Virus record (IMG/VR): IMGVR_UViG_3300021964_009509
Coordinates: 1-23,245 of that record
Reading direction: 5' to 3' (one strand)
Length of the DNA: 23,245 bases
Origin: a virus
Shown: positions 6,635 to 23,206 of the stretch, piece by piece
How the letters are laid out: each line of letters begins with the position of its first letter
Position numbering within the stretch: the stretch's first letter is position 1
Translations under genes and position numbers: made by a program
Notes under the pieces: generated by a model
Database searches by the model: none
What the model saw: the letters and a program-made list of their open reading frames with translations, nothing else
Told to the model about the DNA's origin: nothing

Positions 6635-6636
6635 GA

Positions 6637-7182: not shown

Positions 7183-7213
7183 TATAAATTGTTCTTCATC
7201 CTCTATAATTATC

Positions 7214-8026
7214 TTACAAAAGTCCCTTGTCCATCAGTATCTCCACAGCGGTGCCGTTGGCGAACTCCTCGGGAGTGAACTGCTGATAGGCCAGGCTGTA
7301 TAACCATGGTTCCGGACCACCGTAGTAGGGGTTCTCTATGTCTGACAACTCAGTTCCCGCCACGTCTGTTGCGAAACTCTTCTCATGACAGAACACCGGA
7401 ACCCCTTCACACATGGCCTCCACCGCCGCTATGCTACAACTGGTCACAACACACCAGGCCTCCTTGAGGTCCTCGGATAGGGGCACCTTGGCCTCACTTG
7501 GCCCTGATGTACCCCTGCCCCTAGGCTTGTGTCGAAGTCGGATGGGCCTGTCTGTGTATCTCTTGATCTGTTCAATGGTCTCGTTTGTCCAATTCGGTTG
7601 GTCTATGTATGCGTTTATCCCTGCCGAGCTGGGACACACCAACACATATTTGCCAGCAAACGATGGTGCCTTGATCTTGATCCCAAACTTCTCGAATCTA
7701 TCTGGCTTGCAGTCTTTGATGAAAGGAACATGTATGGAATTCTTACAGATGCGCCAGTAGTGGTTGTCTGGCTTTAAGTTGCTGTTGTCAAATCTTCCAA
7801 AATATGGAGTGTCTGTGAACCAGTACCAATGGTTACGGGCTTCTAACTTCTTGATCATCTCCCTGTTGTTGCCAACGAATCCCCAGAACATGCTGTTGCT
7901 CACAGGGTCATTTTCTACGGTGTTGTCCAATTTCGTAATCTGTTCAGGCCAGGATTTCTCCACTCCGTCAAACACTTCCCAGGCCTTGCTGTTTTTATTA
8001 TTAAATGGTGCGTAGATTGTTAGCAT
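7214..8026 (-). CDS. KpsC/KpsS-like glycosyltransferase, paralog A
   Basis: A 270-residue member of a four-copy family in this island. The C-terminal half has the GT-B signature VVTSCSIAAVEAMCEGVPVF, matching the conserved Ser-x(4)-Glu-Ala...Gly-x-Pro pattern of capsule synthesis (KpsC/KpsS) and CDP-glycerol transferase-like proteins. A shared tail follows, YSLAYQQFTPEEFANGTA. The N-terminal half (NHWYWFTDTPYFG, then DRFEKFGIKIK) aligns by eye with paralog B. The RPHP motif of paralogs C and D is changed to LRHKPRG here. The start overlaps the SGNH gene by 26 bases. Unlike its methyltransferase neighbours, its base composition is similar to the replication genes. A sugar-transfer role is inferred; donor and acceptor are unknown. 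Confidence 0.7.
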   Translation of the reverse strand: MLTIYAPFNNKNSKAWEVFDGVEKSWPEQITKLDNTVENDPVSNSMFWGFVGNNREMIKKLEARNHWYWFTDTPYFGRFDNSNLKPDNHYWRICKNSIHVPFIKDCKPDRFEKFGIKIKAPSFAGKYVLVCPSSAGINAYIDQPNWTNETIEQIKRYTDRPIRLRHKPRGRGTSGPSEAKVPLSEDLKEAWCVVTSCSIAAVEAMCEGVPVFCHEKSFATDVAGTELSDIENPYYGGPEPWLYSLAYQQFTPEEFANGTAVEILMDKGLL

Positions 8027-8693
8027 CTATAAAATCCTTTAACTGATTTGCCCATTCGCCGTGTCCTTTGGCGTTAGGGTGAGGATCTCCTGGTTTACAA
8101 TGTTGATTGTTTTTAACTGTGTAATCAAAATGACTTGTCTCCGGACGAAAAAATCTTTTCTTTTTTATAGTATCAAATAATAATTTGACATCGGGGTTCG
8201 TAATTGTGGCATCAGATAAGGTGTTGTAAAACACGTAAGGATATTTCTTGTTCTCAAAATAGTCCTGTAAATCTAATAATCCTAGGATAGATTCTACCTG
8301 GGTCATTTGTTCCAGATCAGCTCCTGTTGTAAACAAATATTTTATGAAGGATTGTGTGTGATTATTTCGATTCGGATCCCACGTCTTCCACGTGGTAGTC
8401 ATTGATGGAAATTTGTGTGCTTTGTATCCGTCATTGGTGGGATAGTCAAATCTATTACCACCACTAGATCCTATCAGGAAAAAACAATCTGAGGCTTTTT
8501 CCGGAAACTTTTCGCACCATGCCCTTGTGGTCCACATTAATCTCTTGGATCCCCTTCCGCCGTTGGCAAGGTTCACTTCTATGTCTAAGTCCATGAGTTT
8601 GGCCAGTTCCATACCACAATGAGTCCATACATTATCTCGTGGACGCATGGTGAGAAACGAACAACCGTTTATGAACATCTTGGAAATCGCCAT
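8001..8693 (-). CDS. SGNH/GDSL-type hydrolase
   Basis: A 230-residue SGNH-fold protein and the first gene of the leftward arm. The catalytic Ser is in FINGCSFL (S12, block I). LANGGRGSKRL carries the Gly of block II, FFLIGSSGGNR supplies a block III Gly-x-Asn, and DPHPNAKGH near the end gives the Asp203-x-x-His-type pair, here Asp203 and His205 (block V). Enzymes of this kind add or remove acyl groups, often acetate, on sugars and lipids, so it may edit acetylation of the island's glycan. No signal peptide is visible, so it should act in the cytoplasm. No Shine-Dalgarno site precedes the ATG. The promoter read at 8700-8728 would start the RNA at or next to the ATG. Confidence 0.78.
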   Translation of the reverse strand: MAISKMFINGCSFLTMRPRDNVWTHCGMELAKLMDLDIEVNLANGGRGSKRLMWTTRAWCEKFPEKASDCFFLIGSSGGNRFDYPTNDGYKAHKFPSMTTTWKTWDPNRNNHTQSFIKYLFTTGADLEQMTQVESILGLLDLQDYFENKKYPYVFYNTLSDATITNPDVKLLFDTIKKKRFFRPETSHFDYTVKNNQHCKPGDPHPNAKGHGEWANQLKDFIDANNLRTI

Positions 8694-8709
8694 ACGATAA
8701 TTATATATT
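8680..8709 (+). promoter_or_regulatory. possible sigma-70 promoter of the rightward arm
   Basis: TTGGAA (8680-8685) and TATATT (8704-8709) are 18 bases apart and would start RNA near 8716, just upstream of the GT61 ATG at 8722. Matches to consensus are 4/6 and 5/6. The -35 lies inside the divergent SGNH gene. The area is AT-rich, which lowers certainty. Confidence 0.4.
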
Positions 8710-8728
8710 AATTATTTCATTATGCCAA
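8700..8728 (-). promoter_or_regulatory. sigma-70 promoter of the leftward arm
   Basis: Read on the minus strand, TTGGCA (8723-8728) and TATAAT (8700-8705) are separated by exactly 17 bases: a perfect -10, a 5/6 -35 and the ideal spacer. The expected start is about 7 bases after the -10, at or next to the A of the SGNH ATG (8693), suggesting a leaderless mRNA. The -35 lies within the first codons of the divergent GT61 gene. Confidence 0.6.
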
Positions 8729-9807
8729 TGGTTAAGAACATCAATTCTCTGAAATACTTCATCGATCGTTTTCCCATGATTGATAGTGGATACGAGTACT
8801 CAGTCAATTACCATAAGGATATAAATCCAAATTTCAAATCGTTGCCCACTTTCATGGCAGAATTCTTTGATTGTCGAACACACAGTTGCCCACTGTTGCT
8901 GACCAATGAGGATCATCTGATCACTAATCATGTGTGGAACCTCACACACAAGAGCAGGAACAAACCAGATAAGACGCACGGACTGTGGAAGAACTGGGGT
9001 GACCATGTGGAGATCGACCTACCTCCCGTAGCCAGGCAGTTCAACGAGACCTACACCTACGTGTGGTTGCCCATAGATGAGGACAGCGCTAACAACCCAT
9101 GGCACATATGGATGGACGTGATATCCAAGTTCCGATTGATTGAGAAGAGGTGGTCCACCAACTTCGCCAAATACGTGTTTGTGCTTTCGAACCCCAGCAA
9201 TTATTTTGACAAGGTGGCAAAGGAGTTCTTCTCGGAAATGAAGTACATGGTGATGCCAAAGAACGAGACTTGGCAGTTCAAACACATGATCGTGCCCAGC
9301 CTCAGCAATCACAACGACGGAGTGATCACACCACACCTGGCACCATGGCTTAGGGTGATGAAAAACATACTGAAGGTCGGATCTGAAAGAAAGAGGAAGA
9401 TCTTTGTGTCACGTGAGGACGCCAAGACCAGGAAACTGGTAAACGCTGAAAAACTGTTGCTGGCTCTCAAGGGGTGGGAGACCGTGATGCTGGAAAATTT
9501 ATCAATCGAAGAACAGGTAAGGTGTTTCTCAGAGGCATCTCACGTGGTGTCAACCCATGGTGCGGGACTGACCAATCTGCTTTGGTGTGAACCTGGAACA
9601 AAAGTGATCGAGATACAGGATCCAAACATGATAAGAAAGAAAGTGTATCCTGTACTATCATACCAGTTGGGACTAGAACACGAGTTGTACCTAGCAAAGA
9701 CCATACCCATAAAGACACAAGGAGCAAAACCAGAGGGTGTGAAAAGATTGAATGACCTAATTAATTTTGAAGTGGATATAGTAGATTTTATCAAACATAT
9801 AGATTAA
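8722..9807 (+). CDS. GT61 (DUF563) family glycosyltransferase
   Basis: A 361-residue glycosyltransferase of family 61. The diagnostic block is KIFVSREDAKTRKL (about residues 234-247), followed by the helix ENLSIEEQVRCFSEASHVV and the signature STHGAGLTNLLWCEPGTKVI near residues 275-294. In this family the HGAGL segment lies at the nucleotide-sugar site. The central region (PWHIWMDVISKFRLIEKRW) matches the DUF563 layout. It is the first gene of the rightward arm and diverges from the SGNH gene across 28 bases. Most of the gene has backbone-like composition, turning AT-rich near the 3' end. A gap of 61 bases before gmd contains no clear gene or promoter. Confidence 0.85.
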   Translation: MPMVKNINSLKYFIDRFPMIDSGYEYSVNYHKDINPNFKSLPTFMAEFFDCRTHSCPLLLTNEDHLITNHVWNLTHKSRNKPDKTHGLWKNWGDHVEIDLPPVARQFNETYTYVWLPIDEDSANNPWHIWMDVISKFRLIEKRWSTNFAKYVFVLSNPSNYFDKVAKEFFSEMKYMVMPKNETWQFKHMIVPSLSNHNDGVITPHLAPWLRVMKNILKVGSERKRKIFVSREDAKTRKLVNAEKLLLALKGWETVMLENLSIEEQVRCFSEASHVVSTHGAGLTNLLWCEPGTKVIEIQDPNMIRKKVYPVLSYQLGLEHELYLAKTIPIKTQGAKPEGVKRLNDLINFEVDIVDFIKHID

Positions 9808-9868
9808 TATAAACAAAAACTAACTTAGAAAAATATACCAAGGGTCTAAATCTACATAATTATAGTAA

Positions 9869-10852
9869 ATGAAAAAAATTGCTTTCGTAACAGGAATGAC
9901 CGGACAGGACGGTCCTTATCTTGCAAAACATCTTTTATCACATGACTATAAAGTGTATGGATTGGTAAAAAGATACAGCAACCCAAACCTTTCAAATCTT
10001 ACATACCTAGGCATCGAAAACGATGTAGAACTCGTGACAGGAGATATTACGGACGACGCGAACATGAACCACTTGATTAGATCTATTCGCCCAAACGAAT
10101 TCTATAACCTGGCGGCACAAAGTTTTGTTGGTGCTAGTTGGGATCTCAACAAACAGACCACTGAAGTAAATGCAGTGGGTGTGTTGAACATACTGAATGC
10201 GATCGTGAGTCAAAATCCTACCACAAGGTTCTATCAAGCAAGTACCAGTGAACTTTATGGTAATGCCAACATTGACGGGTTACAGGATGAAAAGACTCCA
10301 TTCCATCCACGTTCACCGTATGGTGTATCTAAACTATATGCATACTGGATGACAGTGAACTTTAGAGAGAGTTACAGCATTCATGCTTCAAATGGTATAT
10401 TGTTTAATCACGAATCGCCTATCAGGGGTAAGGAATTCGTAACAAGAAAGATAACAGATGGTGTGGCCAAAATTAAATTGGGTCTTGCTAAAAAATTAAC
10501 ACTCGGTAACTTGGACGCCAAAAGAGACTGGGGATTCGCTGGAGATTTCGTTGAGGCCATGTACACTATGGTGCAACAAAAAGATCCAGGTGATTACGTT
10601 ATTTGTACAGGAGTACAGCACTCGATAAGAGAATTACTAACACATGCTTTTTCCACAGTGGGTGTTGAAAACTGGGAGCAATATGTAGAATCGGATCCTC
10701 GTTTCAAACGTCCAGCAGAAGTGCATGCCCTACACGGATCTTACAACAAAGCCAAAGAAAAACTGGGCTGGGAACCAAAAACCTCATTCAAAGACATGAT
10801 TGCCTTGATGGTCAACGAGGACATCAAACGACTGTCAAATGATTTACGTTAG
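9869..10852 (+). CDS. gmd: GDP-mannose 4,6-dehydratase
   Basis: Gmd converts GDP-D-mannose to GDP-4-keto-6-deoxy-D-mannose, the precursor of GDP-fucose, GDP-rhamnose and GDP-perosamine. The 327-residue product (E. coli Gmd has 373) begins with the NADP-binding loop TGMTGQDG (8-15). It carries the catalytic set T126/E128 in STSELYG and Y151xxxK155 in SPYGVSKLYAYW. Two Gmd-specific blocks are present almost unchanged: FNHESPIRGKEFVTRKI and LGNLDAKRDWGFAGDFVEAMY. No enzyme for the next step (fucose synthase, reductase or aminotransferase) is in the window, so the ketosugar must be used by host enzymes or by genes elsewhere. The last 14 bases overlap paralog B. The gene is AT-rich. Confidence 0.95.
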   Translation: MKKIAFVTGMTGQDGPYLAKHLLSHDYKVYGLVKRYSNPNLSNLTYLGIENDVELVTGDITDDANMNHLIRSIRPNEFYNLAAQSFVGASWDLNKQTTEVNAVGVLNILNAIVSQNPTTRFYQASTSELYGNANIDGLQDEKTPFHPRSPYGVSKLYAYWMTVNFRESYSIHASNGILFNHESPIRGKEFVTRKITDGVAKIKLGLAKKLTLGNLDAKRDWGFAGDFVEAMYTMVQQKDPGDYVICTGVQHSIRELLTHAFSTVGVENWEQYVESDPRFKRPAEVHALHGSYNKAKEKLGWEPKTSFKDMIALMVNEDIKRLSNDLR

Positions 10853-11654
10853 TTCAACTAATAGACAACTCACAGAAAAATATGTCGATTGGGCCTCGCA
10901 AGGTTTACCCAATTCTAAAAAACTACAACCTTTAGAAATTATTTCTAAAACTGATTGCACCAAAACAGTTATATTTGGCGTGCTAAGGGGAACACATTTA
11001 GTATACAGATGGGCAGAAAAAAACAAAATTGATTTCTATTACATGGACAGGCCATACTGGGGCGAGACGAGGAACATGCCCTACTATGTGAGAATTGCGA
11101 AAAACAATCATTTGAAAAATTGGTTCGAAGAACGACCCAGCGATAGGTTTGAGAAAAGTTTTCCGTGGCCAATCAGACCATGGAAGAAAGACGGAAAAAA
11201 TATTGTGGTGTGTCCACCCTCGAACGCCATGAAGGAATTTTTCGGAGTACATGATTGGTTAGACAACACAATTAAGACCTTGCGAGTCAACACAGACAGA
11301 CCAATCATAGTAAAAAACAAAGGGTACAATCCCATAATAGGTCGTGATAAAAATGGTGGTTACATTGTTACAGGAAAAGATAACATACCTCCCAGCCCAC
11401 TTATTGACTGGGATGACACCTATGCTGTGGTAACCTACAATTCAAATATCAGTCTAGAAGCAACGACGAGGGGTATTCCATGTTTTACGGACGTACATAA
11501 TGCGTGTGCTCCTATATCAGAAACCGATTTTTCAAAGATTGAAACACCTAAATACCCTGATAGAGAACCGTTATACTACTCGATGGCCTATGGACAATTT
11601 ACAGCAGAAGAGATGCGAAACGGATACGCATGGGGAGTATTAGATGGACGTTGA
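10839..11654 (+). CDS. KpsC/KpsS-like glycosyltransferase, paralog B
   Basis: A 271-residue homologue of paralog A in the same family. By-eye landmarks in the same order are FYYMDRPYWG, DRFEKSFPWPIRPWKK, NIVVCPPSNAMKEFFG, TDRPIIVKNKG, then the GT-B signature VVTYNSNISLEATTRGIPCF and the shared tail YSMAYGQFTAEEMRNGYA. As in A, the His-Pro of the RPHP motif is not kept (here NKGYNP). The ATG lies 14 bases inside the end of gmd, and the end overlaps paralog C by 11 bases, so all three genes are cotranslated. The sequence is AT-rich, unlike paralog A, so the copies did not arise by a very recent local duplication. Predicted sugar transferase; donor unknown, possibly the Gmd-derived GDP-sugar. 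Confidence 0.68.
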   Translation: MIYVSSTNRQLTEKYVDWASQGLPNSKKLQPLEIISKTDCTKTVIFGVLRGTHLVYRWAEKNKIDFYYMDRPYWGETRNMPYYVRIAKNNHLKNWFEERPSDRFEKSFPWPIRPWKKDGKNIVVCPPSNAMKEFFGVHDWLDNTIKTLRVNTDRPIIVKNKGYNPIIGRDKNGGYIVTGKDNIPPSPLIDWDDTYAVVTYNSNISLEATTRGIPCFTDVHNACAPISETDFSKIETPKYPDREPLYYSMAYGQFTAEEMRNGYAWGVLDGR

Positions 11655-12624
11655 AATATTCAGAAGGACAGTGAAAGATCGCAGACGTGGTGCCAGTTGG
11701 GACCTACTTCAACACATGGCAGAAGGCATACGAGCCGTTGGCGACAATCCCATAATGGTCAACGAAAATATGACCGGTGATTGGCAACCCAACGAGATGG
11801 AGCCCACAACCCCAATCGGTTGTATGTTTGGGTATGGGGGTACCAATCAAATGCATCACACCAAAGGACGTAGACGAGACCTAGTGGAACGTGCGAAGAA
11901 AAAAGGAATCAAGATAATAACGTTTGATGGTGGATTACTTTCTAGTTTTGGCAATGTACACGGGCCCAAACACCATTGGAGAGTTTCGTTGTTTTCACCC
12001 ATGAACAATGGCGACTTCTTGTCAGACAATAGTCCACCGGATAGATGGGAGGCCGCAAAGTCTAGATGGAACGTTAAAAATGAACCATGGCGGAAATCCA
12101 ACCAGGATGATCCGATTATGTTTGTTCTACAACCCAGAGACAACTGGAGCATGAACGAGCTTGATCCAATAGAGTGGTTCCATGGGGTGTATGAAAAACT
12201 AAGGCCTGCAACAGATAGAAAATTTATCGTGAGACCACATCCTAACCATGTTGTTCACATCGAAAACAGAATGGGTGAGTTCCCGGAAGATGTTGAAGTA
12301 GTAATAGGACAAAAATATTTTAATGGAGACGAAAAAAAATACTACAGATTTAATTACCAAGAGGCAATATCTAATTGTCATGCCGTTGTTACACACAATT
12401 CAACTGCTGGTGTGGATTCGTGTGTTCGTGGAATTCCCACCTTCAATACCTCAGACCTCGCACTTAGTTGGCCGGTGGCAAACAAAGATCTAAACAATAT
12501 AGAAACGCCCGAATATCCCGATAGGACTCAATGGCTTTACGATCTTGGATACAAATTATGGAGCGAAGAAGAAATAAGAGATGGCACAGTGTTTAAAAGA
12601 TTCAAAGATAAGTTGGGACTGTAA
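11644..12624 (+). CDS. KpsC/KpsS-like glycosyltransferase, paralog C
   Basis: At 326 residues, the longest member of the four-copy family. The first 55 residues (RTVKDRRRGASWDLLQHMAE) resemble the first Rossmann half of a GT-B enzyme. GIKIITFDGGLLSSFG occupies the position of TDTPYFG in paralog A. The motif FIVRPHPNH is intact, as in capsule Kdo-transferase-like proteins, followed by VVTHNSTAGVDSCVRGIPTF and the tail YDLGYKLWSEEEIRDGTV. The start lies 11 bases inside paralog B, and the TAA overlaps the ATG of the amidotransferase gene. Role inferred as sugar transfer within the same pathway. Confidence 0.68.
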   Translation: MDVEIFRRTVKDRRRGASWDLLQHMAEGIRAVGDNPIMVNENMTGDWQPNEMEPTTPIGCMFGYGGTNQMHHTKGRRRDLVERAKKKGIKIITFDGGLLSSFGNVHGPKHHWRVSLFSPMNNGDFLSDNSPPDRWEAAKSRWNVKNEPWRKSNQDDPIMFVLQPRDNWSMNELDPIEWFHGVYEKLRPATDRKFIVRPHPNHVVHIENRMGEFPEDVEVVIGQKYFNGDEKKYYRFNYQEAISNCHAVVTHNSTAGVDSCVRGIPTFNTSDLALSWPVANKDLNNIETPEYPDRTQWLYDLGYKLWSEEEIRDGTVFKRFKDKLGL

Positions 12625-14252
12625 TGTGTGGTATCTACGGCATAACCGAACACAATCCAACATTTATAAAACAGTTTATAGATATATGTGAGCACAGGGG
12701 GCCAGATGGTTCGAGCATTTGGCATGACGAAAAAGTGACCTTGGGTCATAACTTGTTGAGCATAATGGGTGAACCAGGCAATGCAACACAACCATGGACG
12801 ACACCTAAAGGAAACAAACTGGTTTATAATGGAGAAATCTTCAACTACTACGAACTGAAGGAGAAGTACAAAGAGTTCACGGACACTACAGGTTGCGACA
12901 CAGAACTACTCGCTTGGGGACTAGACAAGTTTGGCATAGCATTTATTAATGAGATGGATTCCATGCATGGCTTCGCCTACTATGAACTCGATAAGAACAC
13001 ACTCACATTGAGTAGAGATCATGCGGGTGTAAAACCTGTTTACTACGCAGAGATCAAAGAAGGATTAGTATTTGGTTCTGAGATCAAAGGAATGCTTGAT
13101 AAAGTTCCTGGTAGTAGGAAGCAGGACAAACTTGCGATGGGGTGCATGACCACCACAGGGCTGAATCCCTTACGTAATACTTTTTTTACAGGTATAAAAA
13201 AACTACTTGCAGGCGAAACTATTGTCTATGACATAGCAAAAAAGAAAATCACAAACACAAAAAGAGTATTCATAAAACCTAATTCGAATAAAAAATTTAT
13301 TCCTGAAGAATTTAGAACAATGGCCAGAAAATCTATAAAAATGGCCAGCATCGGAAGAAGGAAAATTGGCGTGTTCTTGAGTGGTGGGTTGGATTCGAGT
13401 CTGGTGGCATACGAACTTAAAAATGTTCTAAGCGAGGTGAACACTTTTACAAACAGGATGGAACCAAATTACATTCATCCAAAGGATGGTGATCACAACG
13501 AGGATGCCAACTGTGCTAAGGTGTTGGCCACGGTGAACAAGTTCAATCATACCGAAGTAATCATCACTCCCGAAATAGCAAAACAGTACTGGGACGATTC
13601 CATATATTACATAGAGCAACCTGTTTACAATCCAAGTCTCTCAATGTATTGTTACACTAATAAAATTTTACACGATAACGGCATAGTGGTCACAATGGCC
13701 GGAGACATGGGCGATGAGGTGTTGGGCGGTTATCCTAAATACTGGAAACTGAGGAAAGAGGAGTTCAAAAGTTGGGCTGACATTATAGATAAATGGATCA
13801 ACAGGATAAAAAGACCAATAAAAGTATATGACAAAATAGTGTTACGAGATGAACTACTTAAATGTTATCCTGACGATTTATGGAATCCGGTGGACCCCAT
13901 AGGTTCCTACATGGCCCTCGATTGTGTTGCACAGGTTCCTGAAGAATTTTTAATGAGGAACGACAAATACGGAATGGCATATAGCATGGAAGGACGTTTT
14001 CCATTAGCGACAAAAACATTCATGCAGTACTGCATGGATATTCACAGTGACGAGAAGATTGGGGGAACAAAAAACGATACAAAACTTTTGACCAAAATTG
14101 CGTACAAAGGATTGTTACCAGATGTAATCATAAACAAAATGAAAACGGGGTGGACTGTACCACTACAGCACTGGTGGAATAAATCAAGTAAAGCAAATAT
14201 ACCAACAATGATTGTGAGTGATTGGATTAAAAAATACAACATGATCGATTAG
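12624..14252 (+). CDS. asnB: glutamine-hydrolysing asparagine synthetase-type amidotransferase
   Basis: A 542-residue two-domain amidotransferase. The N-terminal class II glutaminase has the nucleophile Cys2 exposed after Met removal (MCGIYG), then EHRGPDGS, NGEIFNYYEL and RDHAGVKPVYYAE. The C-terminal synthetase domain has the ATP PP-loop FLSGGLDSS (about residue 250), MAGDMGDEVLGGY and GRFPLA. Length matches E. coli AsnB (554), and all key motifs are present. Free asparagine synthesis is possible, but inside a polysaccharide operon the closer parallel is the AsnB-like proteins of O-antigen clusters that amidate uronic-acid sugars. It begins at TAATG overlapping paralog C; a 16-base gap with no clear signal follows. 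AT-rich. Confidence 0.9.
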   Translation: MCGIYGITEHNPTFIKQFIDICEHRGPDGSSIWHDEKVTLGHNLLSIMGEPGNATQPWTTPKGNKLVYNGEIFNYYELKEKYKEFTDTTGCDTELLAWGLDKFGIAFINEMDSMHGFAYYELDKNTLTLSRDHAGVKPVYYAEIKEGLVFGSEIKGMLDKVPGSRKQDKLAMGCMTTTGLNPLRNTFFTGIKKLLAGETIVYDIAKKKITNTKRVFIKPNSNKKFIPEEFRTMARKSIKMASIGRRKIGVFLSGGLDSSLVAYELKNVLSEVNTFTNRMEPNYIHPKDGDHNEDANCAKVLATVNKFNHTEVIITPEIAKQYWDDSIYYIEQPVYNPSLSMYCYTNKILHDNGIVVTMAGDMGDEVLGGYPKYWKLRKEEFKSWADIIDKWINRIKRPIKVYDKIVLRDELLKCYPDDLWNPVDPIGSYMALDCVAQVPEEFLMRNDKYGMAYSMEGRFPLATKTFMQYCMDIHSDEKIGGTKNDTKLLTKIAYKGLLPDVIINKMKTGWTVPLQHWWNKSSKANIPTMIVSDWIKKYNMID

Positions 14253-14268
14253 ATTAAATACCGCTGGA

Positions 14269-15165
14269 ATGAAAATAAAAGTCATAACCTCCTACAAACC
14301 GGGCACATGGAATGCTTATGCCAAACGTGCGGTGGATAGTGTACTAAAATATTGGCCCGATGATATCATTGTTGCTGTATATCATGAAGACCAACCACAG
14401 GATGTATTTGAACACCCTAGGGTAGAATGGTATGATGCTCACGTGGTGCAACCTGAACTACTCAAATTCAAGAACAAACACAAAGATGATCCAGTGGCCA
14501 ATGGCGAACTACAGGAGATACCGGGAGGTGTAAGAAGGCCTGCTGAACTTCAGAAAAAAGGAGGACTTGATAAAAATAAAGGATCGTTCTTATGGAATGC
14601 AGTGCGTTTTTCAAATAAAGTTTTTTGCGTCACACATGCACTAAAAAACTCCCACGGATACGATTACATTATTTGGCTAGACGCGGATACCTATACATTC
14701 AGAGATATGCCAAAAAGTTTTTTAGAAAACTTACTGCCCAAAGACACCATGATAACATATCTAGGACGCGAAAATCCAAACCTCAAAGACGGCGGCAAGT
14801 ATCCCGAGTGTGGATTTGTTGGCTACAACATGAATAATCCCGAAATAAAAAATCTCAGTAATGATTGGGAAAAAATGTATGTAACGGATGAGATGTTTAA
14901 ATTGCTAGAATGGACAGATTGTGCTACATTATGGTACCTCGCAAAGAAATACCAAAGAGAGAAAAACATAAAGATAAACGATATCGGCTACTGGAAAGGT
15001 GTGAAAGGACATCATGTTTTCATCAACAGCGAGTTAGGATTATACATAGATCATATGAAAGGTGATCGTAAAGAAGCAGGAAAGAGCAGACGTAATGACT
15101 TTAGACCACAATCTTTAGAAGCCATAAAAGATTTACACAATCTAGATTATTGGAAAAAAGTTTAA
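14269..15165 (+). CDS. GT-A-fold glycosyltransferase
   Basis: A 298-residue protein that looks like a GT-A glycosyltransferase. It begins with the strand-loop MKIKVITSYKPGTWNAYAKRA and carries the metal-binding motif YIIWLDADTYTF (D138, D140). A conserved-looking GGKYPECGFVGYN follows, where such enzymes contact the acceptor, and HHVFINSELGLYIDHMKG near the end contains the His expected for metal and diphosphate contact. I cannot assign the CAZy family. It sits between the amidotransferase and paralog D, with its TAA overlapping the ATG of paralog D. It is AT-rich, but the following genes return to backbone composition, so the edge of the foreign segment probably lies at its 3' end. Confidence 0.75.
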   Translation: MKIKVITSYKPGTWNAYAKRAVDSVLKYWPDDIIVAVYHEDQPQDVFEHPRVEWYDAHVVQPELLKFKNKHKDDPVANGELQEIPGGVRRPAELQKKGGLDKNKGSFLWNAVRFSNKVFCVTHALKNSHGYDYIIWLDADTYTFRDMPKSFLENLLPKDTMITYLGRENPNLKDGGKYPECGFVGYNMNNPEIKNLSNDWEKMYVTDEMFKLLEWTDCATLWYLAKKYQREKNIKINDIGYWKGVKGHHVFINSELGLYIDHMKGDRKEAGKSRRNDFRPQSLEAIKDLHNLDYWKKV

Positions 15166-16037
15166 TGAAAATAGAGATATGGCCTCAGCACGGACCACTC
15201 AACAGTAAGCCCATCTTTGACGCCTTCATAAGAAGTCTACAGAATGCCGGCGAACAACTGTACATCAACAAGAGTGCGGACAACGCCAGCGTGGCAGTGA
15301 TATGGAGTGTGTTATGGCGTGGCAGGATGGAACAGTATAAGAAGATCTGGGATCGCTACAGGTCTCAAGGCAAACCGGTGATAGTGTTGGAAGTGGGAGG
15401 ACTACGTAGAAACAAGAGTTTCAAGATAGGAATAAATGGGATCAATCGTAATGGGGACTTCGCCAACCAAGAGTTCGATGATCAACGTTGGCCTTTGTTT
15501 GAGCACGAGCTCAGACCTTGGAATCCCACAGGAGAGCTCATAGTAATATGTGGACAGCACGACACTTCGGAACAATGGAAGGGAATGCCGAGAATGTCTG
15601 TTTGGTTAGAACAACAGATAACTGAGATCAGAAAATATACACAAAGGCCAATACTAGTCAGACCTCACCCTAGGAACCAAATCAACTTTAACGAAAAAAA
15701 ATTTAAGAACGTAAAGATTCGTATGCCCAAGAGAGATTTTCGTACATATGACGATACTGATTTCAAAGCCACACTAGGCGGAACATGGGCTGTGGTTAAT
15801 CACAGTTCTAACCCAGCCATGGAAGCGGTCATAAGGGGAATACCTGTATTCGTGTCCGAGTCCAGTCTATGCCATGATGTTGGTAATACTCATTTACATG
15901 AGATAAACAAACCCGCCATGCCTAACAGATTCACCTGGGCAAACCAACTGGCCTACACGGAATGGTTCGAGGACGAGATCGAACAAGGACTGCCGTGGGC
16001 AAGAATAAAGAAGAGACTAGAGGAAAGATACTTATAA
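15165..16037 (+). CDS. KpsC/KpsS-like glycosyltransferase, paralog D
   Basis: A 290-residue member of the four-copy family, closest in layout to paralog C. It has ILVRPHPRNQ, then GTWAVVNHSSNPAMEAVIR leading to RGIPVF, and the tail NQLAYTEWFEDEIEQGLP. VIVLEVGGLRRNKSFKIG occupies the position of the first-domain loop. The start at 15165 overlaps the upstream stop (TAATG); an in-frame ATG at 15150 would add five residues inside the preceding gene and is less likely. Composition matches the replication genes, so this copy may be a long-standing phage gene. The C-terminal overlap (TAATG) couples it to the DUF115-like gene. Confidence 0.72.
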   Translation: MKIEIWPQHGPLNSKPIFDAFIRSLQNAGEQLYINKSADNASVAVIWSVLWRGRMEQYKKIWDRYRSQGKPVIVLEVGGLRRNKSFKIGINGINRNGDFANQEFDDQRWPLFEHELRPWNPTGELIVICGQHDTSEQWKGMPRMSVWLEQQITEIRKYTQRPILVRPHPRNQINFNEKKFKNVKIRMPKRDFRTYDDTDFKATLGGTWAVVNHSSNPAMEAVIRGIPVFVSESSLCHDVGNTHLHEINKPAMPNRFTWANQLAYTEWFEDEIEQGLPWARIKKRLEERYL

Positions 16038-16804
16038 TGCAGAAGATCAACATAGGACAACGCAATGTAATCAAACCCATAGAATGGACACCCTACACAG
16101 GCGAGACCGTTGTGGTCAACACAGTGATAAGGCAAGGCAAGAAAATACAAGAGACCGCATTCTACGAGGACAAGGTCAAAGCAGTGCCAAGGGGCAATGC
16201 TTATTGCATAGGTAACGGGCCTTCTCGTAAAGGATTTGATCTTAACAAACTCGAAGCATCAGGACAGACATATGGGTGTAATGCTTTGTACAGAGACTTC
16301 ATTCCTGACTTCATATTCTCAGTCGACACGAAAATAACCGTAAAGATGTGTGAGGACGAAGTGGGGTTAAAGACCACACACTACGCACCAGCGCTGGAAG
16401 TGAACAGGAAACAGAACAAGGGCATGTTACATCTCATACCACACAACCCTCACTGGATATCAGGCAACGCCGCATTCTGGACGGCTGGGGTACACGGACA
16501 CAAGAACATCTATCTGATAGGTTATGACTTCCGAGAGTACGGCAAGGGAGAACTGAACAACATCTACCAGGACAGCGAATGCTACGGAGAGAGGAACGGA
16601 GACTCTATATTTGAGGGTTGGCTGAAGACTTTCCGAGACATGTTGAAGATGAGGCCATACGTGAACTACACAGTGGTACATGACAATCCCCCGAGTTTCC
16701 TGCACAATCTACAGACAGGCACGGACATAGGCAACAGTAAGGTGATCAGTTATAAAGAATTTAACGATACAGTCTTAGACCAGCACTCTCAAAACGCTGT
16801 CTAA
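16037..16804 (+). CDS. DUF115/GT42-like protein, possible glycosyltransferase
   Basis: A 255-residue protein with the hallmark AYCIGNGPSRKGFDLNKL (about 55-72), then YGCNALYRDFIPDFIFSVD (79-97) and, later, HKNIYLIGYDF. The GNGPS...CN pair followed by a short Asp-containing strand is the pattern of Campylobacter-type sialyltransferases (GT42) and the related DUF115/MptE-like proteins, in which this loop binds the CMP or nucleotide part. It could transfer a nonulosonic-type sugar, but no CMP-sugar synthesis genes are visible. I chose the ATG at 16037 overlapping the upstream TAA; an upstream in-frame start at 15962 would add 25 residues that merely read paralog D out of frame. The 3' end overlaps the convergent SprT gene by 44 bases. 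Confidence 0.7.
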   Translation: MQKINIGQRNVIKPIEWTPYTGETVVVNTVIRQGKKIQETAFYEDKVKAVPRGNAYCIGNGPSRKGFDLNKLEASGQTYGCNALYRDFIPDFIFSVDTKITVKMCEDEVGLKTTHYAPALEVNRKQNKGMLHLIPHNPHWISGNAAFWTAGVHGHKNIYLIGYDFREYGKGELNNIYQDSECYGERNGDSIFEGWLKTFRDMLKMRPYVNYTVVHDNPPSFLHNLQTGTDIGNSKVISYKEFNDTVLDQHSQNAV

Positions 16805-17279: not shown

Positions 17280-18626
17280 ATGGACAAAATGCACACAGAT
17301 TTGCCAAAAACAATTAACGAAGCGCTTAAAATACTAGCATATAATGATTATTTCTGGCCAGATCATCGTACGGGCCATATCAACCCACACCCCAAGGACA
17401 AGGAGACCGTGAGATCACTGGCAGAATCACAGTACGCATGGACCGAGAAACAGGCCAAACTGGCACTGGTCATACTCAAAAGATACCTCTCCAAGTTCCA
17501 GGCACACGGCATGGACATCAGGCCATTGCTGGATGAACCCAAGTTCGAGGATGCTTTCCGTGTGATCAGCGCAGACAAGACCATAGAGAGGTACACCGAC
17601 GAGGAAGGGGTGGACAGGATAGAACTGCGATTCCCTTACGACAAGAAACTCATACAGTTGGTTAGATGCCTAAAAGATAACAGAGATCTACCAGCAGGTT
17701 ATTCACAATACGACGGTGAGACAAAAAAATGGACATTCCTGCAGTCAGACGTGACCACTTATTACCTGACCCTGATAGCGGTGCGTTACGATTTCAAGTT
17801 CGTTGATGCAAGTTTGATGGAGCAGTATGAGGAGATACGCGATAGCATAATAGGACATCGCAAACCCACGGCAAGGATACAGGAAGGGAGGATCGTTCTC
17901 GAGGACGCACCCGGATCCCTACAGGAGTACTGGGACAACAATCTTAAGTGCCTGGAACCTTTACAGCAAGTGGACTCATTGAAAAATTTTGACATATCTA
18001 CATCCGGCATCAACATACCGTCGTCCACCAGCATAGCCCACAAGATAGCACACAACAACTACCATAAACTCTGGATCGACTCCAAAAGTTACGGCAAGAG
18101 AGATGTGGTGATGGGATTGAAGGAACTGGATTGTTTTCCATTGCTAATGCCGGTGAGTGGAGACATCAACTCCGTGGACGACGTCCGAGACTTCTGGGAG
18201 TGGCTCAACGCCTTCAAGACACATGGTATAGACATCTTGAACGACTGTGCATGGGGTTTCGACATAAAGGAACCGGTCTACATGAAGGACCAGAGGAAAG
18301 AATATAACGAAAGACAGATGATAATAAACAACAACAGTTCCAGAGACTTTTTTGAAAACCTGTATGAGTTACACCAGATGAGCCGACAGTTCAAACAGAT
18401 CAACGATAATACTAAAATCATATTCGTCAGGAATAGGATACCACGGGCATTAATTAAGAGCAAAATCAAACCAAAAGCATCGTTAGTGGCAGTGGGTGGT
18501 GGTTATTATGCCTCGGGTACGGACAATCTAAAAAGACTTCTTGAGAATCTTCCAAAAAAGTTGTATTATAGTGATCACCAACCCAGTAATTGGGATTGGC
18601 ACGATCATGTTATAATGAAACTTTAG
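17280..18626 (+). CDS. HARP-domain-like protein upstream of UvsW
   Basis: A 448-residue protein, first in the operon ending in the DnaE-like gene. Residues about 113-172 (IELRFPYDKKLIQLVR, then a YDGETKKWTF turn and a helix YYLTLIAVRYDFKF) resemble the HARP/HepA-related module that precedes the ATPase of annealing helicases such as SMARCAL1. No Walker A or DEAD-type motif is present in this protein. The following gene is the helicase UvsW, so the pair could act as a split DNA-remodelling enzyme; that is inference. The rest (residues 180-448) is unassigned and ends with an HQPSNWDWHDHVIMKL tail. No ribosome site is evident. The stop is one base before the UvsW ATG. Confidence 0.72.
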   Translation: MDKMHTDLPKTINEALKILAYNDYFWPDHRTGHINPHPKDKETVRSLAESQYAWTEKQAKLALVILKRYLSKFQAHGMDIRPLLDEPKFEDAFRVISADKTIERYTDEEGVDRIELRFPYDKKLIQLVRCLKDNRDLPAGYSQYDGETKKWTFLQSDVTTYYLTLIAVRYDFKFVDASLMEQYEEIRDSIIGHRKPTARIQEGRIVLEDAPGSLQEYWDNNLKCLEPLQQVDSLKNFDISTSGINIPSSTSIAHKIAHNNYHKLWIDSKSYGKRDVVMGLKELDCFPLLMPVSGDINSVDDVRDFWEWLNAFKTHGIDILNDCAWGFDIKEPVYMKDQRKEYNERQMIINNNSSRDFFENLYELHQMSRQFKQINDNTKIIFVRNRIPRALIKSKIKPKASLVAVGGGYYASGTDNLKRLLENLPKKLYYSDHQPSNWDWHDHVIMKL

Positions 18627-18627
18627 A

Positions 18628-20094
18628 ATGAGCAGTTGCAAACTAGTAATCAAGGACGAAGTGAATGTGAAGTTCGAGAACCTAAGTCTCGAATGGCGTA
18701 AGCGATTGTCCAACAAATTCAAATACGAGATACCATATGCCAGGCACCTGCCAGCGGTCAAACTGGGCAGGTGGGATGGCAAGGTCAGTTTCTTTGGGTT
18801 GGGAGGTACCACTTATCTAAACCTAGTGGATCAGATACTGCCCATACTGGACGAGGGAGGTGTCTACGTAGACTTCGAGGATCACCGGCCGCAACACAAT
18901 TTTGAATTCAAGGCCGTGGACAAGGATTACCTAGCACACATAACCTGGCCCGAGCATCACCCTTGTGCGGGACAACCCATACAGTTGAGAGACTACCAGA
19001 TAGAAGTCATAAACAAGTTCATAGAGAACCCACAGAGCATACAGGAGATAGCCACTGGTGCGGGCAAGACCATAATCACCGCGGCACTTTGCCAATTGGT
19101 GGAACCATATGGTCGTACCTTGACCATAGTGCCTAACAAGAGTTTGGTCACACAGACCGAGGAGGATTTCTTGGCCTGTAACCTAGACGTGGGAGTGTAC
19201 TACGGTGACAGGAAGGAACTAGGCAGATTTAACACCATAGCCACATGGCAGTCACTGAATGTGTTAGAGAAGAAATCAAAAGATGAACATACCACAGATT
19301 TCTTAGAGGCCATAAAGGGCATCAACACTGTGATCATAGACGAGGTGCACATGGCCAAGGCCGATGTGCTAAAAAGATTATTGACCGGACCGTTCGCACA
19401 CTGTGGCATACGTTGGGGACTGACAGGCACTGTACCAAAGGCAGACTACGAGTTCATGGGATTGAAATGTAGCATAGGTGATGTAGCCAACAGGATACAG
19501 GCCAGTGAACTGCAAGACAAGGGTGTGTTGGCCAACTGCCACGTCAATGTGTTACAGACACAGGACCATCCACAGTTCAAGACCTATGGCGAGGAGTTGA
19601 AATGGTTGACCACAGACGATACTAGGATGACCTGGGTGGCGAACACGATCAAGGACATAGCCACTTCGGGAAACACGTTGATACTGGTTGATAGGATATC
19701 CGCTGGCGAGATGTTGGAGAAGAAAATAAAGGATTCCGTGTTCGTGTCGGGATCGACCAAAAACACAGACAGGAAGGAACAATACGATGAAGTATCTACT
19801 GCGACAAATAAAGTTATCATTGCCACATATGGAGTTGCCGCTGTTGGCATTAACATTCCTAGGATTTTTAATCTTGTTCTCATAGAGCCCGGCAAGTCAT
19901 TCGTGCGGGTGATACAGAGCATAGGACGTGGCATCAGGAAGGCCGAGGACAAAGACAGTGTGCAGATCTGGGACATCACCAGCAGTTGCAAGTTCGCGAA
20001 AAGACACCTGGGACAGCGGAAAAAGTTTTACAAAGAGGCCAATTACCCGTATAATATAGAAAAGATAGATTATGAAAATCCTTACACTAGATAA
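18628..20094 (+). CDS. uvsW: UvsW superfamily 2 helicase
   Basis: UvsW is the T4-type ATP-dependent helicase/annealase that unwinds R-loops, migrates branches and remodels stalled forks, shifting replication from origin-dependent to recombination-dependent. The 488-residue product (T4 about 500) has the N-terminal substrate-recognition region, which includes VKLGRWDGKVSFF. The helicase motifs follow in order: Q-like RDYQ, Walker A ATGAGKT (142-148), DEVH (238-241), LTGT (265-268), and motif VI with QSIGRGIRK (430-438). Codons 389-420 use T-ending codons unlike the rest of the gene (see findings). The end overlaps the next gene by 23 bases. Confidence 0.95.
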   Translation: MSSCKLVIKDEVNVKFENLSLEWRKRLSNKFKYEIPYARHLPAVKLGRWDGKVSFFGLGGTTYLNLVDQILPILDEGGVYVDFEDHRPQHNFEFKAVDKDYLAHITWPEHHPCAGQPIQLRDYQIEVINKFIENPQSIQEIATGAGKTIITAALCQLVEPYGRTLTIVPNKSLVTQTEEDFLACNLDVGVYYGDRKELGRFNTIATWQSLNVLEKKSKDEHTTDFLEAIKGINTVIIDEVHMAKADVLKRLLTGPFAHCGIRWGLTGTVPKADYEFMGLKCSIGDVANRIQASELQDKGVLANCHVNVLQTQDHPQFKTYGEELKWLTTDDTRMTWVANTIKDIATSGNTLILVDRISAGEMLEKKIKDSVFVSGSTKNTDRKEQYDEVSTATNKVIIATYGVAAVGINIPRIFNLVLIEPGKSFVRVIQSIGRGIRKAEDKDSVQIWDITSSCKFAKRHLGQRKKFYKEANYPYNIEKIDYENPYTR

Positions 20095-20575
20095 CAGATC
20101 ATACACTTTGGAGAAGATACCCGAGTGGGTGGATGAGAAACTTAGGTTTGCGGTATTAGACAATTCTGATCCTGCCAACCCGGACTTCTTCTACATTCCT
20201 TTGATATTCTTAGAGAGTTTCAACGCACCCGCGGCGGTGCTGGAGATAGGTAAATGGAAGATCAAGATGCCGCTGGACTGGAAGATGCTGATAGGTGAGG
20301 CAGGACAATCAGAGATGCATGTGTTACCAATAACCAGTCTCAACGACAGGGGATTCGATGCTTTCACTTTCAATCCTATGTCAAGTTCTAAACCAGATTT
20401 CTATCCCATAGATGTCGTGGACATCTACACAGAAGTCAAATGGTACTTCCCAAAGATCAAGTCTGGACAGATGTTGGCTGTGCCGTTGTCCAATGGGCCA
20501 AAACCCGTGTGTGCCTACTTCGTCAAAGATATCTCAAGACAGTGTGAACAGGTAGACTATGGCTCGGTCTGGTAG
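20072..20575 (+). CDS. conserved hypothetical downstream of uvsW
   Basis: A 167-residue protein of unknown function whose sequence looks like proteins found beside uvsW in other marine T4-like phages; this is recognition from memory, without a search. It is mostly beta-rich. Recognisable blocks are LEIGKWKIKMPLDWKMLIGE, SEMHVLPITSLNDRGFDAF and VKWYFPKIKSGQMLAVPL. No catalytic motif, signal peptide or membrane span is visible. It begins 23 bases inside uvsW and its end overlaps the next gene by 17 bases, so it is made together with UvsW. A structural or regulatory partner role is possible. Confidence 0.8.
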   Translation: MKILTLDNRSYTLEKIPEWVDEKLRFAVLDNSDPANPDFFYIPLIFLESFNAPAAVLEIGKWKIKMPLDWKMLIGEAGQSEMHVLPITSLNDRGFDAFTFNPMSSSKPDFYPIDVVDIYTEVKWYFPKIKSGQMLAVPLSNGPKPVCAYFVKDISRQCEQVDYGSVW

Positions 20576-20792
20576 ACGAACGATAACAATAGATGCACCC
20601 GTGCTGATAACCAGTAACAAGATCGCCGTGTGGATGGATGAACACTGGATGAAGGATTTCTTTAATTGGTTAAGGCAAAATAAATTCAAGATTTCGGCTA
20701 TGAATCACTTACAAAATAAAATAAAATTAACATTCGTAGATGCGAAAGAATGCACTATGTTCGGATTGAAATATGCCAGCAGAAAAAAATAA
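20559..20792 (+). CDS. small basic conserved-context protein
   Basis: A 77-residue protein, basic at both ends (MARSGRRT and FGLKYASRKK), with a Trp-rich middle (VWMDEHWMKDFFNWLRQNK). No known motif is seen. It overlaps the upstream gene by 17 bases and the clamp-loader-like gene by 20 bases, in a different frame from each, which strongly supports it as a real gene in a tightly coupled operon. The second half is locally AT-rich. Function unknown. Confidence 0.75.
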   Translation: MARSGRRTITIDAPVLITSNKIAVWMDEHWMKDFFNWLRQNKFKISAMNHLQNKIKLTFVDAKECTMFGLKYASRKK

Positions 20793-21228
20793 CAGGAAAT
20801 TCTTTGATCTCAGGAACGGTCTAAAAGCCGTGGACTTCAGGAACAAGGACTACTTCGACAGAATAGACGACAAGGAACAGTCCTTGTATTCACCCTACAT
20901 GCTGATGAGGTATGTGTCGAGCTGTTCGTCCAAGGATCGATTCTATGTGGAACATTACGTAGAGATGGTCAACGAGTGTGTGAATAAACATTGTTTCACA
21001 CTAGGCAAACACAAGAAACTACTCTGGATACTGACCGCCATGTGTGGCACACTGCAACAGCAGTTCCATCCGTGGATCAAACCCATGAAACGTGTGCCAA
21101 ACAAGAGTCTCAAGAAACTGCAAGAGATCTATCCCACATGGAAGGAATCGGACCTAGAGACCTTAGACAAAGTGATAACGGACAGGGAACTAGAGGAGTT
21201 GATGGAGGCGCATGGCATCGACAAATAA
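20773..21228 (+). CDS. 62: probable gp62-type clamp-loader subunit
   Basis: A 151-residue protein resembling the small clamp-loader subunit (gp62) of T4-like phages, which works with the gp44 ATPase to load the gp45 sliding clamp. Supporting features are the segment YSPYMLMRYVSS near residues 39-50, VEMVNECVNKHCFTLGKHKKLLW, then a FHPWIKPMKR stretch and a C-terminal helical EELMEAHGID. The order (conserved Tyr-Ser-Pro box, Asn-containing helix, Trp-Ile basic turn, Gly-Ile-Asp end) agrees with phage clamp-loader A-subunit proteins as I remember them. T4 gp62 is longer (about 187). gp44 and gp45 are outside the window. A search is needed before naming it firmly. Confidence 0.6.
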   Translation: MPAEKNNRKFFDLRNGLKAVDFRNKDYFDRIDDKEQSLYSPYMLMRYVSSCSSKDRFYVEHYVEMVNECVNKHCFTLGKHKKLLWILTAMCGTLQQQFHPWIKPMKRVPNKSLKKLQEIYPTWKESDLETLDKVITDRELEELMEAHGIDK

Positions 21229-21895
21229 ATGCACCTATTGTGGCAAGGAGTTCGCCAAGGAGAGAACCTTACAGGTACACCTGTGTGAACCCAAACGTAG
21301 ATATCTACAGCGAGATGAGAAATGGGTGGTCAACGCGTTCATGGTGTTCCAGCGATTCTATCAGATACACCAACACAACTCCAAACCTAGAACATACGAC
21401 GACTTCGTCAAGAGTGCGTACTACAACGCATTCGTCAAGTTTGGAAGATACATCATGCACATCAACCCGTTGTACCCTGACAAGTACATAGACTACGTGC
21501 TACGATCAAAGATCAAACTGGATCACTGGGCCAGGGACGACCTGTACGAGGAGTACCTGATCGAGACCTTGAAATCAGAACCCGTGGAGTCGGCCTTACA
21601 ACGTAGCATAGCCACAATGATGGACTGGGCCAACGAACAGAACGCACAGTGGAGTGACTACTTCAGGTTGGTCAACACCAACAGGGCAGTGCAACACATA
21701 CAGCAGGGTGCGATAAGTCCATGGCTACTGTTAGGTTGCAGTGCGGGGAAGAAGATGTTAAAATCATTTAACGACGAACAATTACAGATGATTGAGAGAT
21801 TCATAAACCCAAGTTTCTGGCCAAGCAAGATCAAGAGCTATCCAGCGGATCTACTATTGGTGCAGGAGACAGCACGGGAGGCCAAGATTGTCTAA
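21212..21895 (+). CDS. zinc-finger protein downstream of the clamp loader
   Basis: A 227-residue protein with an N-terminal zinc-finger-like motif: C7 and C10 (CTYC), twelve residues, then H23 and C25 (HLC), followed by a basic KRR. The remainder is helical and charged with many aromatic residues (KFGRYIMHINPLYPDKYIDY). No enzymatic motif is visible. It overlaps the upstream gene by 17 bases, and its last 8 bases contain the TTG start of the next gene. The finger suggests binding to nucleic acid or a replication protein; role unknown. Confidence 0.8.
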   Translation: MASTNKCTYCGKEFAKERTLQVHLCEPKRRYLQRDEKWVVNAFMVFQRFYQIHQHNSKPRTYDDFVKSAYYNAFVKFGRYIMHINPLYPDKYIDYVLRSKIKLDHWARDDLYEEYLIETLKSEPVESALQRSIATMMDWANEQNAQWSDYFRLVNTNRAVQHIQQGAISPWLLLGCSAGKKMLKSFNDEQLQMIERFINPSFWPSKIKSYPADLLLVQETAREAKIV

Positions 21896-22121
21896 GATAG
21901 ATCTAGAGATCACTGATAATTTGAGTTTTGAGGACGGGGACTGTGCCGTGATAATAAAAGAGGACGGATCCATAGGTAGAGTGATAATGCCCGACATGAA
22001 CAGGAAGATGTTGGAGTCAGAAGGATATAAGAAACTACTGGATGTATTAGAGGTTCTAGAACCGGGATCACGTGACAAGATGATCGACCATGCCAAACAA
22101 GGTAAAGGGAGTATGCACTGA
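21888..22121 (+). CDS. small acidic protein with TTG start
   Basis: A 77-residue acidic protein (MSKIDLEITDNLSFEDGDCAVI and GSIGRVIMPDMNRKML) of unknown function. The start codon is TTG. GGAGG at 21877-21881 lies 6 bases before it, one of the best ribosome sites in the window, so the rare start is well supported. The gene overlaps the preceding stop by 8 bases, and its last base is the A of the next ATG (TGATG). Context ties it to the DnaE-like protein. Confidence 0.78.
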   Translation: MSKIDLEITDNLSFEDGDCAVIIKEDGSIGRVIMPDMNRKMLESEGYKKLLDVLEVLEPGSRDKMIDHAKQGKGSMH

Positions 22122-22711
22122 TGCCAGATGTGGACATAGATTTCTTTGACAGAGACGGTGTGCTGAAATTATTCAAACACACACCCGCTTCCATGATCAA
22201 AGATGGCAAGTCGGAGAAACACAAGACCGGAGTGTATTTCCATGCGGTGCCCGAACATCCTGTGACCGGACATGCATCACTGGATTACAAGAAGGCAGAA
22301 GATCGTGGATACTTCAAGATCGATTGTTTGAATGTCAACATCTACAAGAACGTGAAGTCGGAGCAGGAACTGGTAGAGTTGATGATACAGGAACCGGACT
22401 GGGACATGCTGAAGGATCCAAAGATAGTAGAAAACCTATTCCATCTGAACGGTCATTTCAACATCGTGTCCAAACTGGAACCCAGGAACATAGAGCAACT
22501 GGCGGCGGTGCTGGCCATCATACGTCCGGCCAAGCGACAGTTGATGTACAAGGATTGGGTAGACATCATGAAGGAAGTCTGGGTGAGACCCACAGACGGT
22601 TCTTACTTCTTCAAGAAGTCACATGCCGTGGCCTACGCACAAGCCATCGTGGTGCAGATGAATCTGATAGCCAGGGATAAATATAACTTTAGTGTACAAC
22701 AAGAAAACTAA
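22121..22711 (+). CDS. DnaE-like mini-protein (condensed polymerase III alpha palm)
   Basis: A 196-residue protein whose blocks match, in order, the palm of bacterial DNA polymerase III alpha (DnaE, about 1160 residues in E. coli). MPDVDIDF (1-8) corresponds to the MPDFDVDF motif holding two catalytic Asp. KHKTGV (33-38) corresponds to the HAGGV segment and HPVTG (46-50) to HPVT. GYFKIDCLNV (63-72) corresponds to GLVKFDFLGL with the third catalytic Asp (D68 here). FNIVSKLEPRNIEQLAAVL leading to IIRPA (113-137) corresponds to VFQLESRGM...RPG, and FFKKSHAVAYA (163-173) to FNKSHSAAYA. The fingers and long inserts are collapsed to short linkers, and PHP, OB and tau-binding domains are absent. Whether it retains polymerase activity is unknown; it may be a processivity or regulatory derivative. 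Similar proteins appear to occur in other marine T4-like phages. Confidence 0.75.
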   Translation: MPDVDIDFFDRDGVLKLFKHTPASMIKDGKSEKHKTGVYFHAVPEHPVTGHASLDYKKAEDRGYFKIDCLNVNIYKNVKSEQELVELMIQEPDWDMLKDPKIVENLFHLNGHFNIVSKLEPRNIEQLAAVLAIIRPAKRQLMYKDWVDIMKEVWVRPTDGSYFFKKSHAVAYAQAIVVQMNLIARDKYNFSVQQEN

Positions 22712-22831: not shown

Positions 22832-23206
22832 TTAAACTGGACGTCGGACCAATTGTATTGTCCTTCTCTTCACCCGTTTCTTTGAAATATCTGAAAGTCT
22901 CACTGTTGGACCATGCACAATCTCCACGTCCTTAGAATTTAGTGTGACCAGTGTTGTGCGGAAATAACGGAAGTCGCCCTTAAGGAATATGTTGATTGGT
23001 AACTTACGATTGGACTCGTGCCACCAGATCTCACCACACTTCAGGAACTTCATCTTGTCCTGTGGCAACATCAACCTACCATAATCATAGAAGCTGATCA
23101 CGTTGGCATCCTCGTTCTGTACTATGCCCACATACTCCAAGTCGCCCTTTCTTATAAGGCTTAAAAATGGGAATTTGTCCCTCAGCGTGTTAAAAATCTC
23201 GTTCAT
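22832..23206 (-). CDS. conserved marine T4-like phage hypothetical
   Basis: A 124-residue leftward gene. The sequence resembles a short protein I remember from many marine T4-like phages, with an N-terminal MNEIFNTLRDKFPFLS, a central ISFYDYGRLMLP, a Trp pair in GEIWWHESNRKLPINIFL and a basic end KKRVKRRTIQLVRR. Function is unknown; the basic tail could contact nucleic acid. No signal peptide or membrane span. It converges on the end of the uvsW operon. No clear minus-strand promoter is visible in the 39 bases before the window edge. Confidence 0.8.
   Translation of the reverse strand: MNEIFNTLRDKFPFLSLIRKGDLEYVGIVQNEDANVISFYDYGRLMLPQDKMKFLKCGEIWWHESNRKLPINIFLKGDFRYFRTTLVTLNSKDVEIVHGPTVRLSDISKKRVKRRTIQLVRRPV

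Follow-up and report, generated by a model that had tools for sequence, protein, structure and literature searches.

A diverged DNA polymerase III alpha palm in a marine T4-like virus, probably the C-terminal unit of a split minimal polymerase

The locus and its catalytic motifs

The stretch of DNA analyzed here (the window) is a 23,245-base fragment of an uncultured marine virus, and it contains an open reading frame for a 196-residue protein beginning MPDVDIDF, with the start codon one codon ahead of PDVDIDF, at the position equivalent to DnaE M399 (Table 1). The first-pass annotation of this DNA had described the product as a condensed DnaE palm that retains all three catalytic Asp residues in a T4-like phage, and profiles, invariant residues and fold search all agree with that description. 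Judging from sequence and predicted structure, the protein (hereafter the C-unit) combines a diverged DnaE (Pol III alpha) palm with the edge of the fingers.

Table 1. Coordinates of the C-unit gene, its motifs and its neighbors in the 23,245-base window.
Feature	Position	Strand	Basis or remark
UvsW-like helicase	18628..20094	+	Pfam/PHROG scans
phrog_11279, syntenic neighbor	20072..20575	+	PHROG scan
phrog_11758, syntenic neighbor	20773..21228	+	PHROG scan
phrog_11058, 227 aa, N-terminal C2H2-like zinc finger; syntenic in other jumbo phages	21212..21895	+	Scans
77-aa ORF, TTG start, 1-base overlap with the C-unit start codon	21888..22121	+	Weak PHROG match
C-terminal unit, probable split minimal DNA Pol III alpha (phrog_11778), 196 aa	22121..22711	+	ORF list, PHROG profile, alignments, fold search
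PDVDIDF, residues 2-8 = DnaE 400-406; Asp equivalents E. coli DnaE D401, D403, D405	22124..22144	+	D3, D5, D7 invariant
HKTGVYF (34-40; HKTGV 34-38), counterpart of DnaE KHAGGV	22220..22240	+	H34, G37 invariant
HPVT (46-49), counterpart of DnaE KHPVT	22256..22267	+	Alignment
KIDCL (66-70): K66 = DnaE K553, D68 = DnaE D555, third catalytic Asp	22316..22330	+	K66, D68 invariant; hhalign onto DnaE 540-643
RPAK (135-138), counterpart of DnaE RPGP (R639)	22523..22534	+	R135, P136, K138 invariant; hhalign
FKKSH (164-168): H168 = DnaE steric-gate H760	22610..22624	+	H168 invariant
phrog_11637, convergent with the C-unit; likewise in most jumbo phages read	22832..23206	-	PHROG scan

Of the uvsW/clamp-loader operon in which the gene had been placed, the UvsW-like helicase is indeed found upstream, but Pfam and PHROG scans show no clamp loader among the window ORFs scanned. 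In the phages that carry this family the C-unit gene has uvsW on one side and the gp61/gp41 primase-helicase genes on the other, within a replication and recombination module, and phrog_11279, phrog_11758, phrog_11058 and the convergent phrog_11637 accompany it in several jumbo phages. Further upstream in the window, positions 3654-16804 hold ~13 kb of glycan-type genes between uvsX/uvsY and uvsW (glycosyltransferase-like, FkbM-like methyltransferases, sulfotransferase-like, nucleotide-sugar epimerase, asparagine synthase-like), an interval that in RaK2 or 121Q contains just a few small genes. The 448-aa ORF immediately 5' of uvsW (17280-18626) has no Pfam or PHROG match above threshold; Phosso likewise has large unannotated ORFs upstream of uvsW.

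The six Pol III alpha blocks occur in the order originally described and are in register with E. coli DnaE both in alignments and in hhalign; the last two extend as LEPR...IIRPAK (residues 119-138), which matches the DnaE RPG region, and FKKSHAVAYA (residues 164-173), which matches DnaE FNKSH with H760. Residues D3, D5, D7, K66, D68, R135, P136, H168 and Y172 (E. coli DnaE D401, D403, D405, K553, D555, R639, P640, H760 and Y764, respectively) are invariant in two alignments, one of 9 diverse phages and one of 51 proteins from the window and IMG/VR, and the motifs DxDxD, KxDxL, RPxK and FKKxH are kept in 158/158 IMG/VR homologues examined; locus L237 lacks DxDxD only because its contig begins inside the gene. 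Across the C family, conservation of D401, D403 and D555 is absolute; at D405, the DnaE groups have Asp and PolC has Asn (PMC3919608). The equivalent D7 is invariantly Asp, which marks the C-unit family as DnaE-like. The steric gate of Pol III alpha is H760, which is invariant in these enzymes and touches the sugar of the dNTP (PMC8485763).

The proposed link to C-family polymerases appears in PHROG profile searches, where the full-length C-unit aligns with phrog_11778 ('DNA polymerase'; 5.3e-66) and a second hit is to phrog_405, which groups the full-size phage Pol III alpha proteins (2.2e-5). Pfam DNA_pol3_finger stays below threshold (16.1 bits versus a cutoff of 22), and phmmer against PDB sequences gives no Pol III match, the top entry being a ribosomal protein (E=0.37); the C-unit is thus too diverged for detection in the PDB by sequence only, and a fold search was required. 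The AF2 model (pLDDT 89.6, pTM 0.75) has bacterial Pol III alpha as its best match in the PDB: the top 14 Foldseek matches are all C-family polymerases, headed by 2hpi (prob 1.00), and noise follows. The two outcomes that would have told against the first-pass annotation, a profile search without a C-family link and a predicted fold holding the Asp residues apart, did not arise in these profile and fold searches.

Among annotated phages, homologues were found in 63 records, all at <60% identity over >=80% of the length. Nearly all are jumbo phages (RaK2, 121Q, PBECO4, PA5oct, XacN1, SCTP-2, Atu_ph07, Phosso); two 141-kb Alishewanella phages are also included. IMG/VR holds at least ~600 C-unit loci (among the matches listed, 571/599 and 600/600 candidate stretches were confirmed), and the large T4-like phages that carry the family include hundreds of marine ones. 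In GTDB, all 11 hits (L327-L337) fall on MAG contigs attributed to unrelated bacterial and archaeal phyla, with at most 93% identity to the window protein; these look like mis-binned viral contigs.

The N-terminal partner and the split point

The GS motif that the C-unit lacks is supplied by a second protein family, phrog_11127 (the N-unit), whose members match Pfam DNA_pol3_alpha at 5.6e-10 and 1.4e-8. In XacN1 the N-unit is ORF245, of 182 aa, and its C-terminus (...GVVWGTGRGSSCCSYCLYLIGLHDVDSIKYGLELSEFFR) aligns with DnaE GVPVGPGRGSGAGS...FERFLN, up to residue 393. Among 73 N-units that are mutually <75% identical, 67 have their C-terminus exactly 33 residues from the G of GRGS, which corresponds to DnaE 393. 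Because these N-units stop at 393 and the C-unit begins at 399, leaving a gap of ~6 residues, the split is both sharp and complementary. The AF2 model of the N-unit (pLDDT 89.8, pTM 0.76) places Pol III alpha and PolC on top in Foldseek against the PDB, with noise below. TM-scores in the fold searches are low (0.3-0.5), as small queries were compared with chains of >900 residues and half of the fold is absent from each, and weight was put instead on the ranking and on the sharp fall after the polymerases.

The N-unit gene lies far from the C-unit gene in the same phage genome, beside a GroES-like gene (RaK2, Phosso, PA5oct, 121Q and the Vibrio phage) and, in several phages, beside gp44 genes. 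A nearer source of the GS motif, the neighboring 227-aa ORF with its string ...LLGCSAGKK..., was considered and rejected: this ORF belongs to phrog_11058, and its homologues do not have that string.

Both units are present in 62 of the 63 phage records that have a C-unit. The RaK2 N-unit as query matched 60 phage records, all within the C-unit set (including XacN1, CM1 and RAS14), and the Alishewanella phages OQ508956/7 are two further carriers; the sole C-unit record with no N-unit match, PP728206, is 109 kb long and comes from a phage type with ~350 kb genomes. In IMG/VR the XacN1 N-unit as lone query retrieved four loci only, and an alignment was therefore used as query instead. Environmental contigs retrieved by the N-unit alone carry the C-unit in 10/20 cases, including 8/9 of those >200 kb. 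A B-family (gp43-like) polymerase is found in 22/24 genomes or contigs carrying the split system.

The window itself contains neither an N-unit nor gp43; the N-unit of this virus is not visible because the record is only a 23-kb fragment. A stand-alone N-unit is also found in 0/26 contigs close to the window, where the matches are to a separate DnaE of ~563 aa. One MAG bin, labelled Pelagibacter, contains both units: its C-unit, on a viral contig, is 93% identical to that of the window, and its N-unit (173 aa) is encoded next to a GroES-like gene on a different contig, co-binning being no proof of one genome. The ~563-aa protein is an extra, PHP-less DnaE-like polymerase seen in the window relatives L276-L280 (records G040, G022, G032, G037 and G035), in which a single chain carries the GS motif, the Asp triad and the fingers sequence RRAFAKK, encoded 4-5 kb 3' of the C-unit where measured. 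Its closest named match is in a 484-kb uncultured phage (38%), and it was not found in the cultured split-Pol phages searched.

Comparison of the window C-unit with close relatives gives dN/dS of 0.023-0.052 (five comparisons with unsaturated dS), and the gene is thus under strong purifying selection. The first-pass annotation had spoken of a palm relic, and a short protein devoid of most DnaE domains might indeed look like a single-protein remnant in decay. With dN/dS at 0.02-0.05, invariant catalytic residues, at least ~600 IMG/VR loci and a partner gene in all but one of the phage records, that reading has next to no probability left, and a relic or pseudogene is ruled out by the dN/dS values and the invariant residues. 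It is instead highly probable that the ORF is the C-unit of a split minimal Pol III alpha with retained function.

What the pair has lost and what it may do

The same annotation held that fingers and accessory domains are reduced to short loops, which is right as to reduction and understates the loss. In alignments with DnaE the C-unit has nothing ahead of residue 399, and hence no GS motif (G363, S364); it has no thumb region (between PDxDxDF and KHAGG) and nothing of DnaE ~643-755, including R709/R710. The chain stops after the FxKSH helix, with no HhH, clamp-binding motif or tail, or OB, and the PHP domain is absent as well. GS motif, thumb and palm therefore never meet in one chain, the first being on a separate protein and the second absent. 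In the N-units the R390 position is occupied by Glu or Asp. R390, R709 and R710 are reported dNTP contacts (PMC4374717), so the side of the site that grips the dNTP is altered, and with the thumb missing and these three residues replaced or absent, templated and processive polymerization by the pair is not assured.

The architecture that would result can be outlined as follows. The C-unit would contribute the metal-binding palm strands (D3, D5, D68) with K66 beside the third Asp, the RPG-like element and a short helix bearing the steric-gate H168; the N-unit would contribute the helices that precede the palm and the GxGRGS nucleotide-binding motif. We infer that the halves associate physically, and together they may rebuild a nucleotidyltransferase site of pol-beta type that does without PHP domain, thumb, R709/R710 fingers element and clamp-binding tail. 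The minimal polymerase suggested earlier is accordingly tenable as a two-gene pair and not for the C-unit alone, the GS motif lying on a second gene elsewhere. We lean slightly toward the view that the pair catalyzes as a DNA polymerase, the chief reservation being the loss of the thumb and of the fingers arginines. The main replicase of these phages is the separate gp43-like B-family enzyme, and the uvsX/uvsY/uvsW and primase-helicase context suggests that the split enzyme would most likely serve accessory DNA synthesis in recombination-dependent replication or repair.

The same losses can be read in another way, namely that the pair assembles without polymerizing DNA and serves the replisome as a scaffold, non-catalytic or regulatory; it might mimic Pol III and bind host epsilon, clamp or tau, or it might steer gp43. 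Absence of the thumb and of the R709/R710 element, the change of R390 to Glu or Asp, the B-family polymerase in 22 of the 24 genomes and the DnaQ-like exonuclease genes of some split-Pol phages are all consistent with such a role. However, even very diverged members share the catalytic Asp residues, the GS motif and the steric-gate His without exception, none of which a purely structural role would call for; moreover, epsilon binds to the PHP domain in E. coli, and the pair has neither this domain nor the clamp-binding tail, making mimicry of epsilon or clamp contacts unlikely. A scaffold is thus the less likely reading, and for the decoy of host clamp or tau that had been suggested no supporting evidence was found. 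A site that is active on some other substrate (non-templated addition, or nucleotidylation of protein or RNA) is less probable again: the set of residues kept (GS, DxD and the distal D) is that of a generic nucleotidyltransferase and the parts lost (thumb, fingers arginines) are polymerase-specific, but the DnaE-specific RPG-like and FxKSH elements are also kept, with H168 equivalent to H760 that contacts the dNTP sugar (PMC8485763), and the gene lies within a replication and recombination module.

Returning to catalysis by the pair, we put forward, tentatively and with slightly less than even confidence, that these proteins of ~175 and ~195 residues form the smallest working C-family DNA polymerase known, and that abundant marine T4-like viruses use this minimal heterodimer as a dedicated second polymerase in addition to their B-family replicase. 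If the halves do form an active enzyme, they would show what the minimal core of the bacterial replicase is and would represent a polymerase palm operating as a heterodimer, and large T4-like phages would use two unrelated replicative-type polymerases. With a sharp split point, nearly perfect co-occurrence and two small proteins to work with, the idea is easy to test.

Comparison with known systems

A C-family palm in such a phage had been called unexpected, but for group 2.2 jumbo phages a split minimal Pol III alpha beside a B-family polymerase had already been predicted (Iyer et al. 2021, PMC7824862), with the Mg-binding Asp residues and the template-binding part on a separate C-terminal protein, as in the C-unit here, and the NTP-binding GS unit on a distant gene, as in relatives of the window virus; the N-unit had been annotated earlier as a truncated Pol III alpha in genome papers (PMC5259590, PMC6102473). 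A limited search of the open-access literature found no experimental test of the split enzyme. The window ORF is thus an independent rediscovery of the published C-unit; what is added here is the exact boundary, the co-occurrence in 62/63 records, the change of R390 to Glu or Asp, retention of the steric gate, the selection estimate, the marine breadth and the second, PHP-less DnaE in some relatives.

Split pairs of phrog_11127 and phrog_11778 are represented by RaK2 ORF162 + ORF124, Atu_ph07 gp316 + gp74 and 121Q gp56 + gp16. Like the cultured group 2.2 phages, the window has a full-length member of the C-unit family (38-54% identity; 37-52% to the cultured phages of the nine-phage alignment) with the same catalytic residues, and the arrangement is shared, with phrog_11279, phrog_11758 and phrog_11058 upstream, phrog_11637 convergent and primase/helicase downstream; unlike them, it derives from an uncultured marine virus and shows no N-unit or gp43 within its 23 kb. 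With bacterial DnaE (E. coli DnaE, Taq DnaE 2hpi) the C-unit shares the palm strands bearing D401/D403/D405/D555, K553, the RPG element, FxKSH with the steric-gate His and the fold match, whereas its one chain covers no more than the C-terminal portion of the palm plus a piece of the fingers, without GS motif, PHP, thumb, R709/R710, HhH, clamp-binding motif or OB. The full-length phage DnaE (phage G type, phrog_405) and the ~563-aa DnaE of the window relatives likewise have the palm motifs; in contrast to the C-unit they carry GS motif and RRAFAKK fingers in a single chain, and some of the same viruses encode such a DnaE in a gene of its own, 4-5 kb 3' of the C-unit.
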